From contig CALQCC020000032.1 in the NCBI GenBank assembly GCA_943328975.2, positions 1-54,353 of the forward strand: a DNA stretch of 54,353 nucleotides, written 5' to 3'. The stretch comes from Bordetella parapertussis (GTDB taxonomy: Bacteria; Acidobacteriota; Terriglobia; Bryobacterales; Bryobacteraceae). The notes under the pieces were generated by a model, which did no database searches, had not been told where the DNA came from, and was given only the letters and a program-made list of their open reading frames with translations. The position numbers were made by a program, and so were the translations under genes. Positions 32,347 to 41,445 of this stretch are shown piece by piece (position 1 is the stretch's first letter; each line of letters opens with the position of its first letter).

Positions 32347-33422
32347 CGCGCCACTGCCGGCGAGTAAGCATTTGGAAGAAACAAGCGGGGTTCTCCCTTG
32401 CCGTTGGCCGGAGCCAACCACACATCTGTGGATGCCCCTGGCACCGTCTGGCTGTGCGGCAGTGAATACAGAACCTGATCGGCATCCAGCCACTCCAACT
32501 GGTCGTCTACGCTCCGTCGCTCTGCGAGGGACGTCTCTATTTGTGTCTTCAGATCCAAAACGTGCAGCTGCCAGATGACTCGGTCGCCGGGCATTCGCTT
32601 TTTGTAGGCCACCCTGGTGCCGTCCGGAGACATGGACGGACACTCAACATTTTCATGGATAACGCGGGCGGTCCGCGCCTTGATGCTGCCTTCGATGAGA
32701 TAGTGTTTGCGATTGCTCGACAGCGTGCAATAGAAACGATCGCTATCGGGTGCGAACGTCACTCCCCAGAAGTTAAAGTCCGCCGCCGTGAAAGGTTGAC
32801 CGTCTTTCATTACGGCAAATTTTTCCATGTCGGCAATCACCTTGCCGCTTGCCGTGTCGATCAGCGATGTTTGCGTGGTGAAGTCCACCGAATCGTAACC
32901 GTGGCCCGTTACAAATACCGTTACCGCGGCGAGCCGGCCATTGGGTGAAACGCGCGTCCGGCTGGGGATCCCATTGAGCGGAAGCGTAAACAGTCGACGG
33001 AACGTGGAGTCGAAGATATCCGCAGTGTAGGTGGTAAACACGCCCCGGTCCGCTGTCAGGCAACTCCCTTTGCCTCCCGCAAAATAGACGGCTTCGCAAT
33101 TCCACTGCTCCTGAAACTGCGGCGTCAATCGCCCTGGGTATTCCACAAACGCGAGCTGTCCGTAGTGTTGTTCTGGATTGGTGGAGCGGAAGAAGATCCT
33201 TTGTAGCGGCGTTTCGGCTTTCGTAGCCTCGATGGGCGGCGTTTCAGGAATCTGCACTGTTGGCGGAATGGTAGGCTGTACCGTCGGCGCGACCGTCTCC
33301 ACCGGTGGCGGGGATACCGGTGGGGGCGCATTTTGCCAGAACATCCAGCCCAAACCTACGATGCACACCACGCATAGTCCGGCAAATATCCGGATCGCGT
33401 TACGCTGCGGATTCATATCCAT
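32343..33422 (-). CDS. membrane-anchored beta-propeller-like protein
   Basis: 359 residues. One N-terminal membrane helix (IFAGLCVVCIVGLGWMFW, residues 9-28), a Pro/Val/Thr-rich linker (30-65), then a domain of repeated strands of the TolB/WD40 sort (GIPSRTRVSPNGRLAAVTVF, GVTFAPDSDRFYCTLSS, CPSMSPDGTRVAYKK). The S-P-D-G-T-R-V-A-Y segment is the clearest TolB-like signature. Its start overlaps the end of the MFS gene by 23 bp, so they are probably co-expressed. Function unknown. Confidence 0.68.
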   Translation of the reverse strand: MDMNPQRNAIRIFAGLCVVCIVGLGWMFWQNAPPPVSPPPVETVAPTVQPTIPPTVQIPETPPIEATKAETPLQRIFFRSTNPEQHYGQLAFVEYPGRLTPQFQEQWNCEAVYFAGGKGSCLTADRGVFTTYTADIFDSTFRRLFTLPLNGIPSRTRVSPNGRLAAVTVFVTGHGYDSVDFTTQTSLIDTASGKVIADMEKFAVMKDGQPFTAADFNFWGVTFAPDSDRFYCTLSSNRKHYLIEGSIKARTARVIHENVECPSMSPDGTRVAYKKRMPGDRVIWQLHVLDLKTQIETSLAERRSVDDQLEWLDADQVLYSLPHSQTVPGASTDVWLAPANGKGEPRLFLPNAYSPAVAR

Positions 33423-34668
33423 CCCCTATCGTTTGCAAGACCTTCCGGGAAAGCAGCAACACCATGACCAGAATCGCCAGAAATGCACCAGACGCCACTT
33501 GCCTCCCCTGCGTCTGCCAGAGCCAACCGAAGGCAACGGACGAAACCATTTTGCCCAGACCTATGGAAGTGGTCAACAGAGCCAAGCCGGTGGTCCGCAG
33601 GCGCGCGGGAATCACCGAACTGGCAATCGCCATCAGCACGCCCTCGGTAGCGGCGTAGTAGATTCCGAAGAACAGCAGTGGGATCACAGGGAAGCCTTGC
33701 GTCAGCGTTCCGGTGCCCAATAGAACGTAAATCACCGCCAAGAAAGCATAGCCGCCCAGCAGCACGGGTTTGCGTCCCAGGCGGTCCGCCAACCGGCCGG
33801 CGGGTATCGAAAGCAGCATATAGACGGTCGCGGTGGCGACGTAATAGAGCGGAAAGAACTGCGTCGCCATGCCGCTTTGTTCTTGCAGCAGCAGGTACAC
33901 AAATGCATCACTCACCGTGGCGAGACCGAGAATGGCGCCCAGGATCGCCAAAGCCCGGAACTCGCGCGAAGAACGCAAGAAGTCCATCGCACCGCGCAGA
34001 GACGCCCTAGCCGCTGACGCCGGCAGAGCCAGCGGATTCTCCACGAACAACATCAGCACCGCGACACCCAACAACGCAAAGACGAAGCTGGTCATCCACA
34101 AAGCGCCGTACGCCCCCGGAAGTCGCGACGCCAGAACGAATGCGGCGATGGGCCCCAACAGCGATCCGCCTGCATCCATAGCCCGATGCACCGCAAACGA
34201 GGTGGCGAGCATTCCCGGAGCGCTGTTCAAAGACAGCAGCGCATCTCGCGGGGCGGTGCGCATTCCTTTGCCCACACGGTCCACAGCCGTCACAGCACCG
34301 ATCCATCCCGTGGAGGCCCCCGCCGCGAGCAAGCCGAGCTTGCAGACACACGACAATCCGTAACCCGCCGCGGCCACTTCCCGATGACGGCGCCAACGGT
34401 CCGCCAGAATGCCGCCCGCCAGACCGAGCAGTGCAACGGCCATGCCGTTATAGATCCCGTCAATGGCTCCAAAAGCGAGGGGGCTGGCGTGAAGGTACAA
34501 CACCAGGTAAACGGGCAACATGCTGTTGACCATCTCGGCGGAAATATCGGTGAGTAAGCTGGTGAAACCCAAGCGCCAGACGACAGGGCTCACAGCGGAC
34601 GTTTGTCCAGGGGAAGGCAGCGAAGCCGCCCGCAGTTTCAGTTGTTCGATCCAGTCTAAACGGTACAT
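33400..34668 (-). CDS. major facilitator superfamily transporter
   Basis: 422 residues from the ATG at 34668; a TTG at 34695 would add nine. About twelve membrane helices in two sixfold halves can be traced. Between helices 2 and 3 is the MFS loop G-x-L-A-D-R-W-R-R (GGILADRWRRHREVAAAG), repeated in the second half as IPAGRLADRLGRKPVLLGG. Drug or metabolite efflux is plausible but not shown. The gene is divergent from the SprT-like protease gene. Confidence 0.9.
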   Translation of the reverse strand: MYRLDWIEQLKLRAASLPSPGQTSAVSPVVWRLGFTSLLTDISAEMVNSMLPVYLVLYLHASPLAFGAIDGIYNGMAVALLGLAGGILADRWRRHREVAAAGYGLSCVCKLGLLAAGASTGWIGAVTAVDRVGKGMRTAPRDALLSLNSAPGMLATSFAVHRAMDAGGSLLGPIAAFVLASRLPGAYGALWMTSFVFALLGVAVLMLFVENPLALPASAARASLRGAMDFLRSSREFRALAILGAILGLATVSDAFVYLLLQEQSGMATQFFPLYYVATATVYMLLSIPAGRLADRLGRKPVLLGGYAFLAVIYVLLGTGTLTQGFPVIPLLFFGIYYAATEGVLMAIASSVIPARLRTTGLALLTTSIGLGKMVSSVAFGWLWQTQGRQVASGAFLAILVMVLLLSRKVLQTIGDGYESAA

Positions 34669-34740
34669 CGGACAATTGATCCGGAGCGGGCTCAAAAAGA
34701 GCGCAATGGAGCCGCCAACCTGATGCTAGCATAGGAGACG

Positions 34741-36057: not shown

Positions 36058-37890
36058 TCACCAAATCGGATGAACCTCGGGGATGTTCCAGTTGAGTCCC
36101 AACTTCCTCACGCGGGCAACGGGCAAGCGGTCTAGACCGTAGCCGTAAGTAATCGGCTGCAGATCTGGGCTGAGTGCTCGATAAACATGGAACGGAGTGG
36201 ACTCAAGATCGCGCGAAGTCACATCCAGCAGCGCGACGCGGATGCCCTTCCCTTTGAGACACAACGCCACGTTCTGTAGGGACCGCTTGGCACCGCCGCC
36301 CGCCAAATCGCGGAGGGCCACACCGGGGCTCTTCCCCCGCAACCAGTCAAATGCCCCTGCGCGTTCGGCGCGGAAGTAGTAGGCCGCGTGGTCCAGCATG
36401 GCTCGCACCCCGCCGGGCGAATCGGGACTCTTCACCAAGCCCATTTGCATGATGCGCCGCAGATAGGGGCCCGTCTGACCTAGCTCCAGAATCGCCTGCC
36501 GCAGCGCTCCCGCAACATCCAGATCCGCACCCAAGCCGATCGTCACTCCGGGGTAGCTGAGTCCATCGCCGAACGCCAGGGCCACCACAGCGCTGCCGAT
36601 GACAGTGGTCGGCAGCTGATACAACTCCACTCGCGCTCCGAACGATTCGATGCCCGCTAGAACAGTCGCAAGCCGAGGATCTAACGTAGCATCCAGTTCC
36701 ATCCGCAGCCCGGGCGATGCCGTCAGCCATGCGGCCATGAAGGCGTCCCGTTCAATCAATTCGAGAACGGCGCGCAACTTGGAATCGTCAGCGGAAGTGG
36801 AAGCCGCCAGCCCGTTGGAAGTTCCCTGGCAGATGACTTGTTCGCGACGAAGGTCCATTGAGAGGAATGCCAAACTGGAGGGGACCCACACAGGACCGCC
36901 ACCCTCCAGCCAACTCGCTTGGCTCCAGGGATACTCCTCGTTCACGTTGAACGGTGTGAACGGAAACTCCGCACGCTGGTATTGATCGTCGCTATACAGT
37001 GGAAGTTCGTGCGGATCCAGAACGTCTCCCGCCAGCTGTTCCATCCTGCACCAACGAATTCGCGCCGGGTCAGGGATCGAGGGAGCATAGCGTTCTACGG
37101 CTTCCCCAACCGCGGAAAGAATCGCGCCCGTCAGGGTCAAGCCTTTGCCCCATCCACTGGGCAGGGTGCGGACCTCGCAACCTTGCAGAACACGCGGCGG
37201 CGCGGCCGTGGCGACGATGGGCAAGTCGAGCCCTGTATCCTCGAAGGCCTCCACCACAATCTGCGACACGATCCCCATGCGACTGTCCAGGCAACAGGCC
37301 AAAGACGCCAGCACCATCCCCGGCTCGTCGTCCTCCGAAAATGAGACCTCGGGCTTGCGCTCGATACCGGTGGTCCCGGAGCCGCAGACCTCGCAGCGAG
37401 GCAACGCAAGAAACTGGCACACGGATACACCGTCGGCACCCGGGCGCACAAAGGCCGCACGGTCCAGCAGCGTGCAGCCCTTCAGCCCTTCACCGGAGTA
37501 GAGCAGCAATTCCCCTGCCACCAACTCGGCAGCCTCGCGGAAACAGGCGTCGTCGACCACATTCGCGGCACCGCTCGCGGAGCTGGCGCACTCCAAGCGA
37601 ACGGAGGCGCAGTGCGCACATCCCCGACGCCCAGGAACGCTGAACGGACCCACCTGGATCTCACCGTTGCGGAAACAGACCGTGATTGAAGGAAGCTTCG
37701 CGTCCCACGCCCATTGCGCCAGCTCCCGAATGCGACGGTCGGCCTCGTCGGACAACAACACGGCGGCAGTTACACCAGCAGGAACGGCCTTGTCGTCCGT
37801 ATCCGCATAGTGGGTTCCCTCTGGACCTAATATAGACTCCAATAGCCGCGTAAATTGGTCTTCTTTACTGCGTCCTTTTACCAAATACAC
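36058..37890 (-). CDS. YcaO cyclodehydratase fused to a TOMM-type leader-binding/zinc domain
   Basis: About 610 residues. A GTG at 37890 (AAGGG six bases upstream) is preferred; a TTG at 37896 adds two residues. With TTG numbering, residues 1-180 form a cyclodehydratase partner domain of the TOMM type: LPSITVCFRNGEIQVGPFSV then two zinc-like CxxC pairs (93/96 and 168/171). Residues 225-612 are YcaO, with the ATP/Mg motifs EAVERY (265-270), TSNGLAAST (359-367), LELIERDAF (378-386) and QAILELGQ (468-475). Such enzymes use ATP to cyclise Cys/Ser/Thr in precursor peptides. No SagB-like oxidase is nearby, and the C-terminus (IPEVHPIW) is not a typical PxPxP. A likely precursor gene lies upstream. 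Confidence 0.88.
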   Translation of the reverse strand: MYLVKGRSKEDQFTRLLESILGPEGTHYADTDDKAVPAGVTAAVLLSDEADRRIRELAQWAWDAKLPSITVCFRNGEIQVGPFSVPGRRGCAHCASVRLECASSASGAANVVDDACFREAAELVAGELLLYSGEGLKGCTLLDRAAFVRPGADGVSVCQFLALPRCEVCGSGTTGIERKPEVSFSEDDEPGMVLASLACCLDSRMGIVSQIVVEAFEDTGLDLPIVATAAPPRVLQGCEVRTLPSGWGKGLTLTGAILSAVGEAVERYAPSIPDPARIRWCRMEQLAGDVLDPHELPLYSDDQYQRAEFPFTPFNVNEEYPWSQASWLEGGGPVWVPSSLAFLSMDLRREQVICQGTSNGLAASTSADDSKLRAVLELIERDAFMAAWLTASPGLRMELDATLDPRLATVLAGIESFGARVELYQLPTTVIGSAVVALAFGDGLSYPGVTIGLGADLDVAGALRQAILELGQTGPYLRRIMQMGLVKSPDSPGGVRAMLDHAAYYFRAERAGAFDWLRGKSPGVALRDLAGGGAKRSLQNVALCLKGKGIRVALLDVTSRDLESTPFHVYRALSPDLQPITYGYGLDRLPVARVRKLGLNWNIPEVHPIW

Positions 37891-37918
37891 TGTCAACCCT
37901 TACGAACCTTCCACATAG

Positions 37919-37946
37919 AAAAAGGGCCTGCCAGCGGCAAGCCCTT
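37919..37946 (-). terminator. intrinsic terminator between the peptide gene and the YcaO gene
   Basis: On the minus strand an 11-bp stem (AAGGGCTTGCC, loop GCT, GGCAGGCCCTT, one G-T pair) runs into a T-rich end (CCCTTTTTC). It follows the peptide stop by 23 bases and precedes the YcaO start by about 30. Partial read-through would give much more peptide mRNA than enzyme mRNA, as is common for modified-peptide operons. Confidence 0.8.
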
Positions 37947-37969
37947 CACGCACCCCACAAGTTCTGGAG

Positions 37970-38206
37970 CTAGTGCTGCATTTTCCCGGCAAGACCTTCC
38001 AAGGTACCCAGATTCTTCTGCGCATCCTTCAAAGCATTGTTCAACCCGTCCAGTTGTGCACTCACCAAGCGAAATTCCGCCGGCGTCGTGATGCCTTTGA
38101 TGATCTCCCAAAAACGCAACTTGTCCTTCTCGCTACCGAGGAGCTTCAGCAGGCCTGCCGTATTCAGCTGTAGCGCCTGTACTTTTAGTTTCAGTTTTTC
38201 GTCCAT
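37970..38206 (-). CDS. 78-residue helical peptide, candidate precursor or partner of the YcaO enzyme
   Basis: ATG at 38206 behind a near-perfect Shine-Dalgarno (AGGAGGGATC-ATG); a longer frame from 38248 is not used. The protein (start MDEKLKLKVQALQLN) is rich in Leu, Lys and Gln, without Cys, signal peptide or membrane helix. It is predicted to be mostly alpha-helical, with a break near residues 38-43 (GITTPAE) and a tail GTLEGLAGKMQH. Thr/Ser are at 16, 25, 40, 41, 49 and 68 only. Position, strong translation and the terminator behind it suggest a RiPP precursor, but the lack of a Cys/Ser-rich core is odd. No family is recognised; a regulatory partner is the alternative. Confidence 0.7.
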   Translation of the reverse strand: MDEKLKLKVQALQLNTAGLLKLLGSEKDKLRFWEIIKGITTPAEFRLVSAQLDGLNNALKDAQKNLGTLEGLAGKMQH

Positions 38207-40645: not shown

Positions 40646-40936
40646 ATGGCCAACACCGAAACCCGCAACGAGAAGCTCGATCTCCGGCTCACCCCCTCGG
40701 CCAAACGAACCCTGCAAAACGCGGCCAAACTGTCGCATCGCTCGGTGAGCGAGTTCGTCCTGGAAAGTGCCCTGCAGCGGGCCGAGGAGACACTCCCGGA
40801 CCGCCAGTATTTCGGGTTGAATGCCAAGCAGTGGGCCGAATTCCAGTCCGCTCTCAATGCCCATCCGCGTCCGATGCCTCGGCTGGCGAAGATGCTCCGT
40901 GAGCCGAGCGTGTTTGAGCGCGGCGGCCTGAAGTGA
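40646..40936 (+). CDS. DUF1778/TacA-like antitoxin
   Basis: 96 residues. It has a ribbon-helix-helix N-terminus (KLDLRLTPSAKRTLQNAA, SVSEFVLESAL) and a tail that contacts the toxin, including the R-x-Y-F-x-L segment (DRQYFGLNAKQW) seen in TacA. The GNAT toxin gene overlaps its stop by four bases (GTGA). Confidence 0.87.
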   Translation: MANTETRNEKLDLRLTPSAKRTLQNAAKLSHRSVSEFVLESALQRAEETLPDRQYFGLNAKQWAEFQSALNAHPRPMPRLAKMLREPSVFERGGLK

Positions 40937-41445
40937 CTCCACTCCGCATCGAAAAGCTTCAGCGCACCCATTGCATTGACGACTTCGACTGCGGACAAGA
41001 AGCGCTCAATCGCTTCCTATTGCGCTACTCGCTCCAGAACCAGCAAGCTGGAGCTTCGCAGACCTACTTGGCCGTGGCGAACGAATCGCAAGTAGTCGGC
41101 TACTACACATTGGTTGTCGGACAGGTCAGTTACGAAGCCGCCCCGGTACGAGTCAAGAAGGGCTTGGCTGACCATCCAGTCCCAGTAATGCTGTTGGCTC
41201 GCTTGGCCATCGCCGTAGGATGGCAGGGGAAAGGCCTCGGTTCCGGCCTGCTCAAAGACGCGCTACGACGCACCCTGCAAGCCGCGAACATCGCGGGCAT
41301 CCGTGCCTTTGAGGTTCACGCCAAGGACGAGCAGGCGGTAGCGTTCTACCAGAGGTTCAATTTCATCCCCTCGCCGAGCGATCCGTGCCACCTTTACATC
41401 CTGCCGAAAGACATTCCCGCGCTGCTAGGGTCGACCTCGCTTTAA
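40933..41445 (+). CDS. GNAT-family acetyltransferase toxin (TacT-like)
   Basis: 170 residues from a GTG overlapping the antitoxin. The family acetylates aminoacyl-tRNA and stops translation. The sequence shows the opening FDCGQEALNRFL, an acetyl-CoA loop WQGKGLGSGLL (Q/R-x-x-G-x-G pattern), LLARLAIA before it, and the C-terminal AVAFYQRFNFIPSPSDPCHLYI. The operon order matches TacAT. Which tRNAs would be targeted is unknown. Confidence 0.87.
   Translation: MTPLRIEKLQRTHCIDDFDCGQEALNRFLLRYSLQNQQAGASQTYLAVANESQVVGYYTLVVGQVSYEAAPVRVKKGLADHPVPVMLLARLAIAVGWQGKGLGSGLLKDALRRTLQAANIAGIRAFEVHAKDEQAVAFYQRFNFIPSPSDPCHLYILPKDIPALLGSTSL

Follow-up and report, generated by a model that had tools for sequence, protein, structure and literature searches.

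A Cys-free small protein tied to a YcaO enzyme: a candidate two-gene modification cassette in Acidobacteriota and Verrucomicrobiota

The YcaO enzyme that thioamidates a glycine of McrA (TIGR03266) modifies a protein permanently, and it is unusual for a natural-product precursor to be more conserved than its enzyme. TOMM systems of the heterocycloanthracin and thiopeptide kind employ a fused C-D cyclodehydratase with a shortened N-terminus that lacks the portion recognising the peptide; the heterocycloanthracin enzymes lack ~100 N-terminal residues and are F-protein-dependent, as described in PMC4603692. Also reported there are mobilisin TOMMs, in which a fused cyclodehydratase lies near a short peptide with few Cys, Ser or Thr residues and whose clusters have B, C and D proteins, as well as Nif11/NHLP precursors, which are long, with a small proportion of Cys, Ser and Thr, and carry a hypervariable core. 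The streptamidine family, in which a YcaO makes an amidine, has precursors of 31-89 residues without Ser/Thr/Cys-rich regions, encoded with a stand-alone YcaO in a typically larger cluster that includes a hydrolase, a dehydrogenase and ABC transporters (PMC8442711). A PxPxP C-terminus is linked with azoline-forming YcaOs (PMC12338566).

The locus analysed here lies in a 54,353-nucleotide stretch of DNA, hereafter the window, and comprises a YcaO gene preceded by a gene for a small peptide. In common with the heterocycloanthracin and thiopeptide enzymes, the window YcaO is a C-D fusion with a shortened N-terminus, although it differs from these systems in having no F protein, no linked dehydrogenase, a Cys-free peptide and scores below both curated cut-offs. 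Going by their description, it resembles the mobilisins in pairing a fused cyclodehydratase with a short peptide that contains little Cys, Ser or Thr, and differs in having no linked B protein. The streptamidine family offers a similar combination of YcaO and small precursor and is distinguished by its stand-alone enzyme, larger cluster and other peptide motifs. Compared with McrA thioamidation, a small neighbouring protein takes the place of McrA, and the window enzyme scores 66.3 bits on TIGR03266, far under the cut-off of 365. The features of the locus preceding the enzyme are as follows.

37970..38206, minus strand: peptide gene, 78 amino acids, Cys-free, presumed substrate (open reading frame, AGGAGG ribosome site and upstream homologues).
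38081..38116, minus strand: codons RFWEIIKGITTP for R31-P42, within the most conserved peptide stretch, about residues 28-42 (alignment of seven peptides, per-column conservation).
37921..37947, minus strand: terminator-like hairpin, 12 pairs then a T-rich tail, between the peptide and YcaO genes.

The original prediction of a short gene with a strong ribosome site ahead of the YcaO gene, flanked by thrC and ubiX and encoding a peptide with no Cys and few Ser/Thr, was borne out: both reading frames are present, the ATG start of the peptide is preceded by the ribosome site AGGAGGGATC, and the product contains 0 Cys, 2 Ser and 4 Thr with a net charge of +3. The neighbours are ordinary, namely a thrC-like PALP enzyme and a ubiX-like flavoprotein, with SprT-like and MFS genes further out. 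The accompanying claim that no transporter surrounds the pair needs amendment, as an MFS transporter gene occupies 33400-34695, although there is no sign that it belongs to the pair. No linked protease, oxidase/dehydrogenase, B protein or conserved exporter was seen beside the window pair. Elsewhere in the window (40646-41445, plus strand), a gene for a TacA-like antitoxin is followed by an overlapping GNAT acetyltransferase gene, a layout that we take to be a toxin-antitoxin pair of the TacA-TacT type. A double nitroreductase/SagB-like protein is encoded at L126:7992-9962 (minus strand; G000 contig 1), on a contig that differs from that of the only YcaO.

The 73-nt gap between the two minus-strand genes holds the hairpin, which folds as a 12-bp stem (91 nt, z -2.27; 3 of 200 shuffles as good). 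Terminator-like sites number 3 in the region against 2.7 expected from shuffles, and therefore stem length alone supports the hairpin, its stem being the longest (12 pairs versus 5). Such an element, judged from its sequence, would yield peptide in excess of enzyme, which counts in favour of the peptide being the substrate. The other loci, with gaps of 20 nt, 0 nt or an overlap, have no room for it.

Homologues of the window peptide (46-61% identity) are encoded just 5' of YcaO in five other genomes, all six peptide genes of this clade possess a clear ribosome site, and peptide dN/dS in three close pairs is ~0.11-0.13; the open reading frame is therefore a real gene, chance being excluded. Eight positions are invariant in all seven aligned peptides (M1, L19, F32, I35, G38, T40, T41 and L52, with GTG starts read as Met). 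The helical character that had been proposed for the peptide was upheld in part: helical periodicity is significant for residues 41-77 (p 0.006), whereas residues 4-24 (p 0.08) and 27-38 (p 0.71) fall short of significance. The window peptide gene is AT-richer than its surroundings (51% GC versus 60% for the whole window), and base composition is otherwise not odd. Searches of Pfam, NCBIfam, PHROGs (two peptides), PADLOC (window pair only) and solved structures returned no credible known family. An EspC-like match (E 0.007, one of seven peptides), a PHROG match to the peptide of locus L004 (0.0074) and an Atg16 profile match (0.0019, with no single stretch passing the limit) were dismissed as helix/coiled-coil chance. 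Plasmid, phage and viral origins were likewise rejected, the window peptide having no match in plasmids, the L111 peptide none in phages, and four-peptide and two-YcaO alignments none in viral contigs; the PADLOC scan of the window pair gave no match that would indicate a defence role. The peptide family is new and conserved, and is linked to a YcaO whose front domain is reduced; no description of such a pair was found in a literature search judged on titles and abstract openings.

The nearest YcaOs were taken from among the best 80 loci listed by a scan of a genome collection described as covering 84,980 species, and further clade members came from separate genome searches. The six full-length members found are the window enzyme, L027 (Pyrinomonadaceae), L028 (Verrucomicrobiales), L029 (an Acidobacteria MAG), and L111 and L112, whose two genomes share the order of L029. 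Loci L029, L109, L113 and L119 are one locus, as are L004, L020, L038 and L114, and each was counted once. The five other enzymes are 44-48% identical to the window YcaO, the pair spans Acidobacteriota and Verrucomicrobiota, and a homologous peptide gene lies directly 5' of all six, with gaps of 73, 20, -4, -11, -11 and -11 nt for the window, L027, L028, L029, L111 and L112, respectively. A seventh linked locus is L004, where an 88-codon reading frame ends right at the start of a 37% identical YcaO without the E1-like domain. When 23,853 six-frame segments were ranked with a profile of the other six peptides, this frame came next (E 0.017, against 1.9 for the hit after it), and its score of 15.9 bits was reached by none of 5000 shuffles (best 13.3). 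As L004 retains the peptide and the YcaO domain although the E1-like domain is absent, the pair presumably functions without that domain. The predicted co-occurrence of the two genes thus stood in the six clade members, two phyla and L004, and failed in L030 (Actinokineospora), whose full-length, 38% identical orthologue has no peptide 5' of YcaO nor elsewhere in the genome. The L030 enzyme (L030:7836-9818) is sister to the peptide clade and carries a repeat insertion in its front domain. In a further relative, L115 (39%), the YcaO gene is preceded by a run of N; the L004 (1444-2715) and L115 (934-2067) genes are same-group YcaOs lacking the E1-like domain in the alignment. The actinobacterial YcaO loci included in the analysis yielded no match to the peptide at E <= 1.

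No peptide was detected away from YcaO: among 61 family genomes searched with the window peptide, and among 396 Acidobacteriota genomes searched with a four-peptide profile, the single match was in each case the query's own genome. Within the main clade the peptide was therefore found beside orthologous YcaOs and, in these searches, never without YcaO, so that the proposed association survives there. Three of four genomes carry one copy each, the fourth being that of L030 with none. Small open reading frames around eight loci (window, L027, L028, L119, L117, L118, L020 and L030; 623 frames of 25-150 amino acids, <= 5 kb from YcaO, the downstream flank being limited to 108 nt at L027 and 1551 nt at L020) were compared by BLASTP, and those common to lineages at E <= 1e-3 were only the peptide and overlying antisense frames; the divergent L020 (= L004) peptide was not connected by BLASTP and needed the profile. 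The surroundings of the pair vary, with five different settings among the seven linked loci (from gene lists, with Pfam for some): dnaN precedes the L027 pair, a hydrolase gene precedes and a DUF3016 gene follows the L028 pair, and truA follows L119 and, going by the listed start, L117 and L118.

The pair is rare and patchy. With YcaO query P0001, at least 3 of 396 phylum genomes matched at E <= 1e-30 (own included), and at E <= 1e-45 there were at least 6 of 256 genomes in the order of G457 and 2 of 119 in that of G455, both counts including the centre genome and more distant YcaOs, and at least 1 of 320 in that of G456, centre genome included. Apart from the count for the order of G455, these are lower bounds, as the searches scored the first few candidates of a loose initial screen. 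In the one same-genus genome searched (G024), neither peptide nor YcaO was matched. Such patchiness with differing neighbours gives the pair the look of what may be a horizontally moving two-gene unit. A same-family relative, L025 (G049 contig 385), has at least two YcaO genes, with ThiF-like and nitroreductase-like frames adjoining by eye. One explanation for the window arrangement is that the genes lie side by side without being related, the peptide being a housekeeping protein or a chance frame. The solitary YcaO of L030 is in keeping with this; nevertheless, linkage in seven loci with five surroundings, purifying selection and the lack, in the searches made, of any peptide without YcaO contradict it, and it is considered very improbable. 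The tie of peptide to enzyme, without known exceptions other than L030, was counted for a substrate role.

The constraint on the peptide's amino acids is stronger than that on the enzyme. In a close trio, peptide dS is 0.43-0.67 and dN 0.05-0.09, compared with a YcaO dN of 0.16-0.23; in three distant pairs, where synonymous sites are mostly saturated, peptide dN up to QLD is 0.23-0.28 versus 0.52-0.58 for YcaO. This lower dN of the peptide was also counted in favour of its being the substrate. The C-terminal part behaves differently with distance, which bears on a model in which the first ~55 residues form a leader and the C-terminal tail is a RiPP core modified at Ser/Thr, perhaps cut out by an unlinked protease. 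In support of this model, and in line with the earlier expectation of a faster-varying C-terminus, that part diverges faster in the distant pairs (dN 0.58-1.45), its length differs, and a precedent exists in the Nif11/NHLP precursors (PMC4603692). However, the tail of the close trio is conserved about as much as the rest of the peptide, a KAL pattern recurs in the tails of five of the seven peptides (L027, L029, L111, L112 and L004), and the expected hypervariable core is absent from the seven aligned peptides. Moreover, the window tail has one Thr and no Ser or Cys, and Nif11/NHLP models in Pfam and NCBIfam gave no match at E <= 1 for the seven peptides. A leader-core arrangement is thus distinctly improbable.

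The enzyme itself has the following features.

36058..37896, minus strand: YcaO cyclodehydratase gene, 612 amino acids, with a truncated E1-like (C) domain fused to a YcaO (D) domain (Pfam and TIGR03604).
37357..37896, minus strand: degenerate E1-like domain, residues 1-180 (approximate boundary), with CxxC at 93/96 and CxxC at 168/171 (TIGR03882, TruD alignment).
36103..37149, minus strand: YcaO catalytic domain, residues 250-598, ATP-site motifs retained.
36061..36081, minus strand: C-terminus PEVHPIW, a PxPxP variant (YcaO alignment).

The annotated start is TTG, and an alternative GTG at 37890, 6 nt behind AAGGG, may be the true start. Pfam YcaO matches no other protein of the 4.34 Mb genome, which is 99.66% complete; this one scores 177.8 bits (4.6e-52) on PF02624, above the gathering cut-off of 25.7. 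On TIGR03604 (SagD) it reaches 197.8 bits, below the curated cut-off of 219.25. In the 13-member YcaO alignment, TIGR03604 is matched by all 13 and TIGR03882 by 11 at E <= 0.001. The GKG, ExxER, SNG, ExxERD and ExxQ motifs, which we take to constitute the ATP site, align with those of TruD and LynD. At the C-terminus, PEVHP retains the first and last Pro of PxPxP, and Px(V/I)xP replaces PxPxP in five of the six peptide-clade enzymes, L028 also being without the first Pro, whereas the four myxobacterial relatives in the alignment keep PxPxP (PDPHP).

The front of the enzyme did not conform to the original prediction of its own N-terminal leader-binding domain of TOMM type. The match to the E1-like C domain model TIGR03882 is weak (24.2 bits versus a cut-off of 36.9) and covers residues 70-109 only, and the usual leader-binding part is missing. 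Window residue 20 aligns, weakly, with TruD residue 131, and ~110 front residues are therefore missing; the winged-helix recognition element of TruD and LynD presumably sits in these. On this alignment the N-terminus is too short to hold a recognition element of the TruD/LynD type. No F protein (TIGR03693) was found in the genome at E <= 1, and no PqqD-like domain exceeded its cut-off there (best 17.2 bits versus 23.4).

What related enzymes act on can be gauged from the wider YcaO group. This group has 17 members (support 100/100): the six clade members, L030, L004, L115 and eight myxobacterial proteins. A peptide with Cys-rich repeats is encoded 21-250 nt 5' of the longest YcaO frame at seven of the eight loci from myxobacteria; at the eighth, L033, the contig starts 395 nt before that frame. 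The precursors at L031, L032, L034, L035, L036, L037 and L039 consist of a leader and long Cys-rich repeats, with a KDL-type helix motif in six of the seven; gene calls around three of these loci are unreliable at their GC. Since the same slot holds an evident heterocycle precursor in related loci, position argues for the window peptide being a substrate. When the peptide was compared with the leaders of six Cys-rich precursors from myxobacteria, homology was rejected (hhalign 9.7, with 60 column-shuffled controls reaching 12.4). In a smaller tree (28 of 93 YcaO rows), with seven peptide and seven Cys-rich rows counted, one change separates both peptide kinds; in a larger one (76 of 93, omitting one duplicate, some distant rows and some redundant cyanobacteria), the peptide label needs three changes, with N-masked L115 scored as peptide-bearing. 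A clade of the seven peptide rows against all other rows is rejected (p-AU 1e-13), and a nine-row clade that adds L030 and L115 is weakly rejected (p-AU 0.028). L004 branches off basally to the myxobacterial enzymes (91/95, not starred), which would make the Cys-free peptide the older kind in the group, replaced in myxobacteria and lost in L030.

These data also bear on the second of the two roles originally proposed for the peptide, that of a partner rather than an unusual substrate. Such a partner would serve in recognition or activation, standing in for the missing recognition element or F protein, the true substrate being encoded elsewhere in the genome. The short enzyme front and the lack of an F protein or PqqD-like domain by the thresholds above fit this role, a partner could be more conserved than its enzyme, and L030 carries an enzyme without the peptide. 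Conversely, related myxobacterial enzymes have a Cys-rich precursor in the same position, and the hairpin would reduce enzyme relative to peptide. Furthermore, the lineages have no other small gene in common within 5 kb, so that any distinct substrate would need an unlinked gene. A partner role is therefore regarded as unlikely.

The gene pair, its co-occurrence, its constraint and the ATP-site motifs are demonstrated, and position and linkage favour reading the pair as a two-gene post-translational modification cassette in which the Cys-free protein is probably the dedicated substrate of the YcaO. The recognition, modified site and chemistry might be as follows. The YcaO domain would activate a backbone amide of the peptide using ATP, whereupon a nucleophile would attack. 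As the enzyme's own recognition element is missing, it presumably binds the peptide through the YcaO domain itself, perhaps gripping the conserved RFWEIx(K/R)GITTP stretch together with the helix that comes after it. The best-guess site is the invariant Gly-(Ile/Trp)-Thr-Thr, which could give one or two methyloxazolines with a loss of 18 Da each. The TTPxE/Q of the peptide presumably also fits an ordinary helix-capping box, and T40-T41 may therefore be kept for folding. Counting against the cassette are the peptide-free L030, the few Ser/Thr, the lack of a hypervariable core, linked protease or conserved exporter, the altered PxPxP, a conservation of the peptide above that of its enzyme, scores under the TOMM cut-offs and the lack of profile kinship with myxobacterial leaders.

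A more specific and tentative version, possible rather than probable, is that the YcaO permanently modifies the backbone of an intracellular protein that is small, folded and Cys-free, with no secreted natural product, as a self-contained bacterial two-gene module. This would be comparable in kind to McrA thioamidation, whereas the myxobacterial members of the group apparently act on Cys-rich repeats. If the peptide is the substrate, the pair would be about the smallest possible YcaO system, without a leader-binding module, F protein, linked oxidase, protease or exporter, and would show how a YcaO can find its substrate without a recognition element. With Cys-rich repeats in some members and a conserved Cys-free protein in others encoded before one group of enzymes, the evolution of substrate choice becomes testable.
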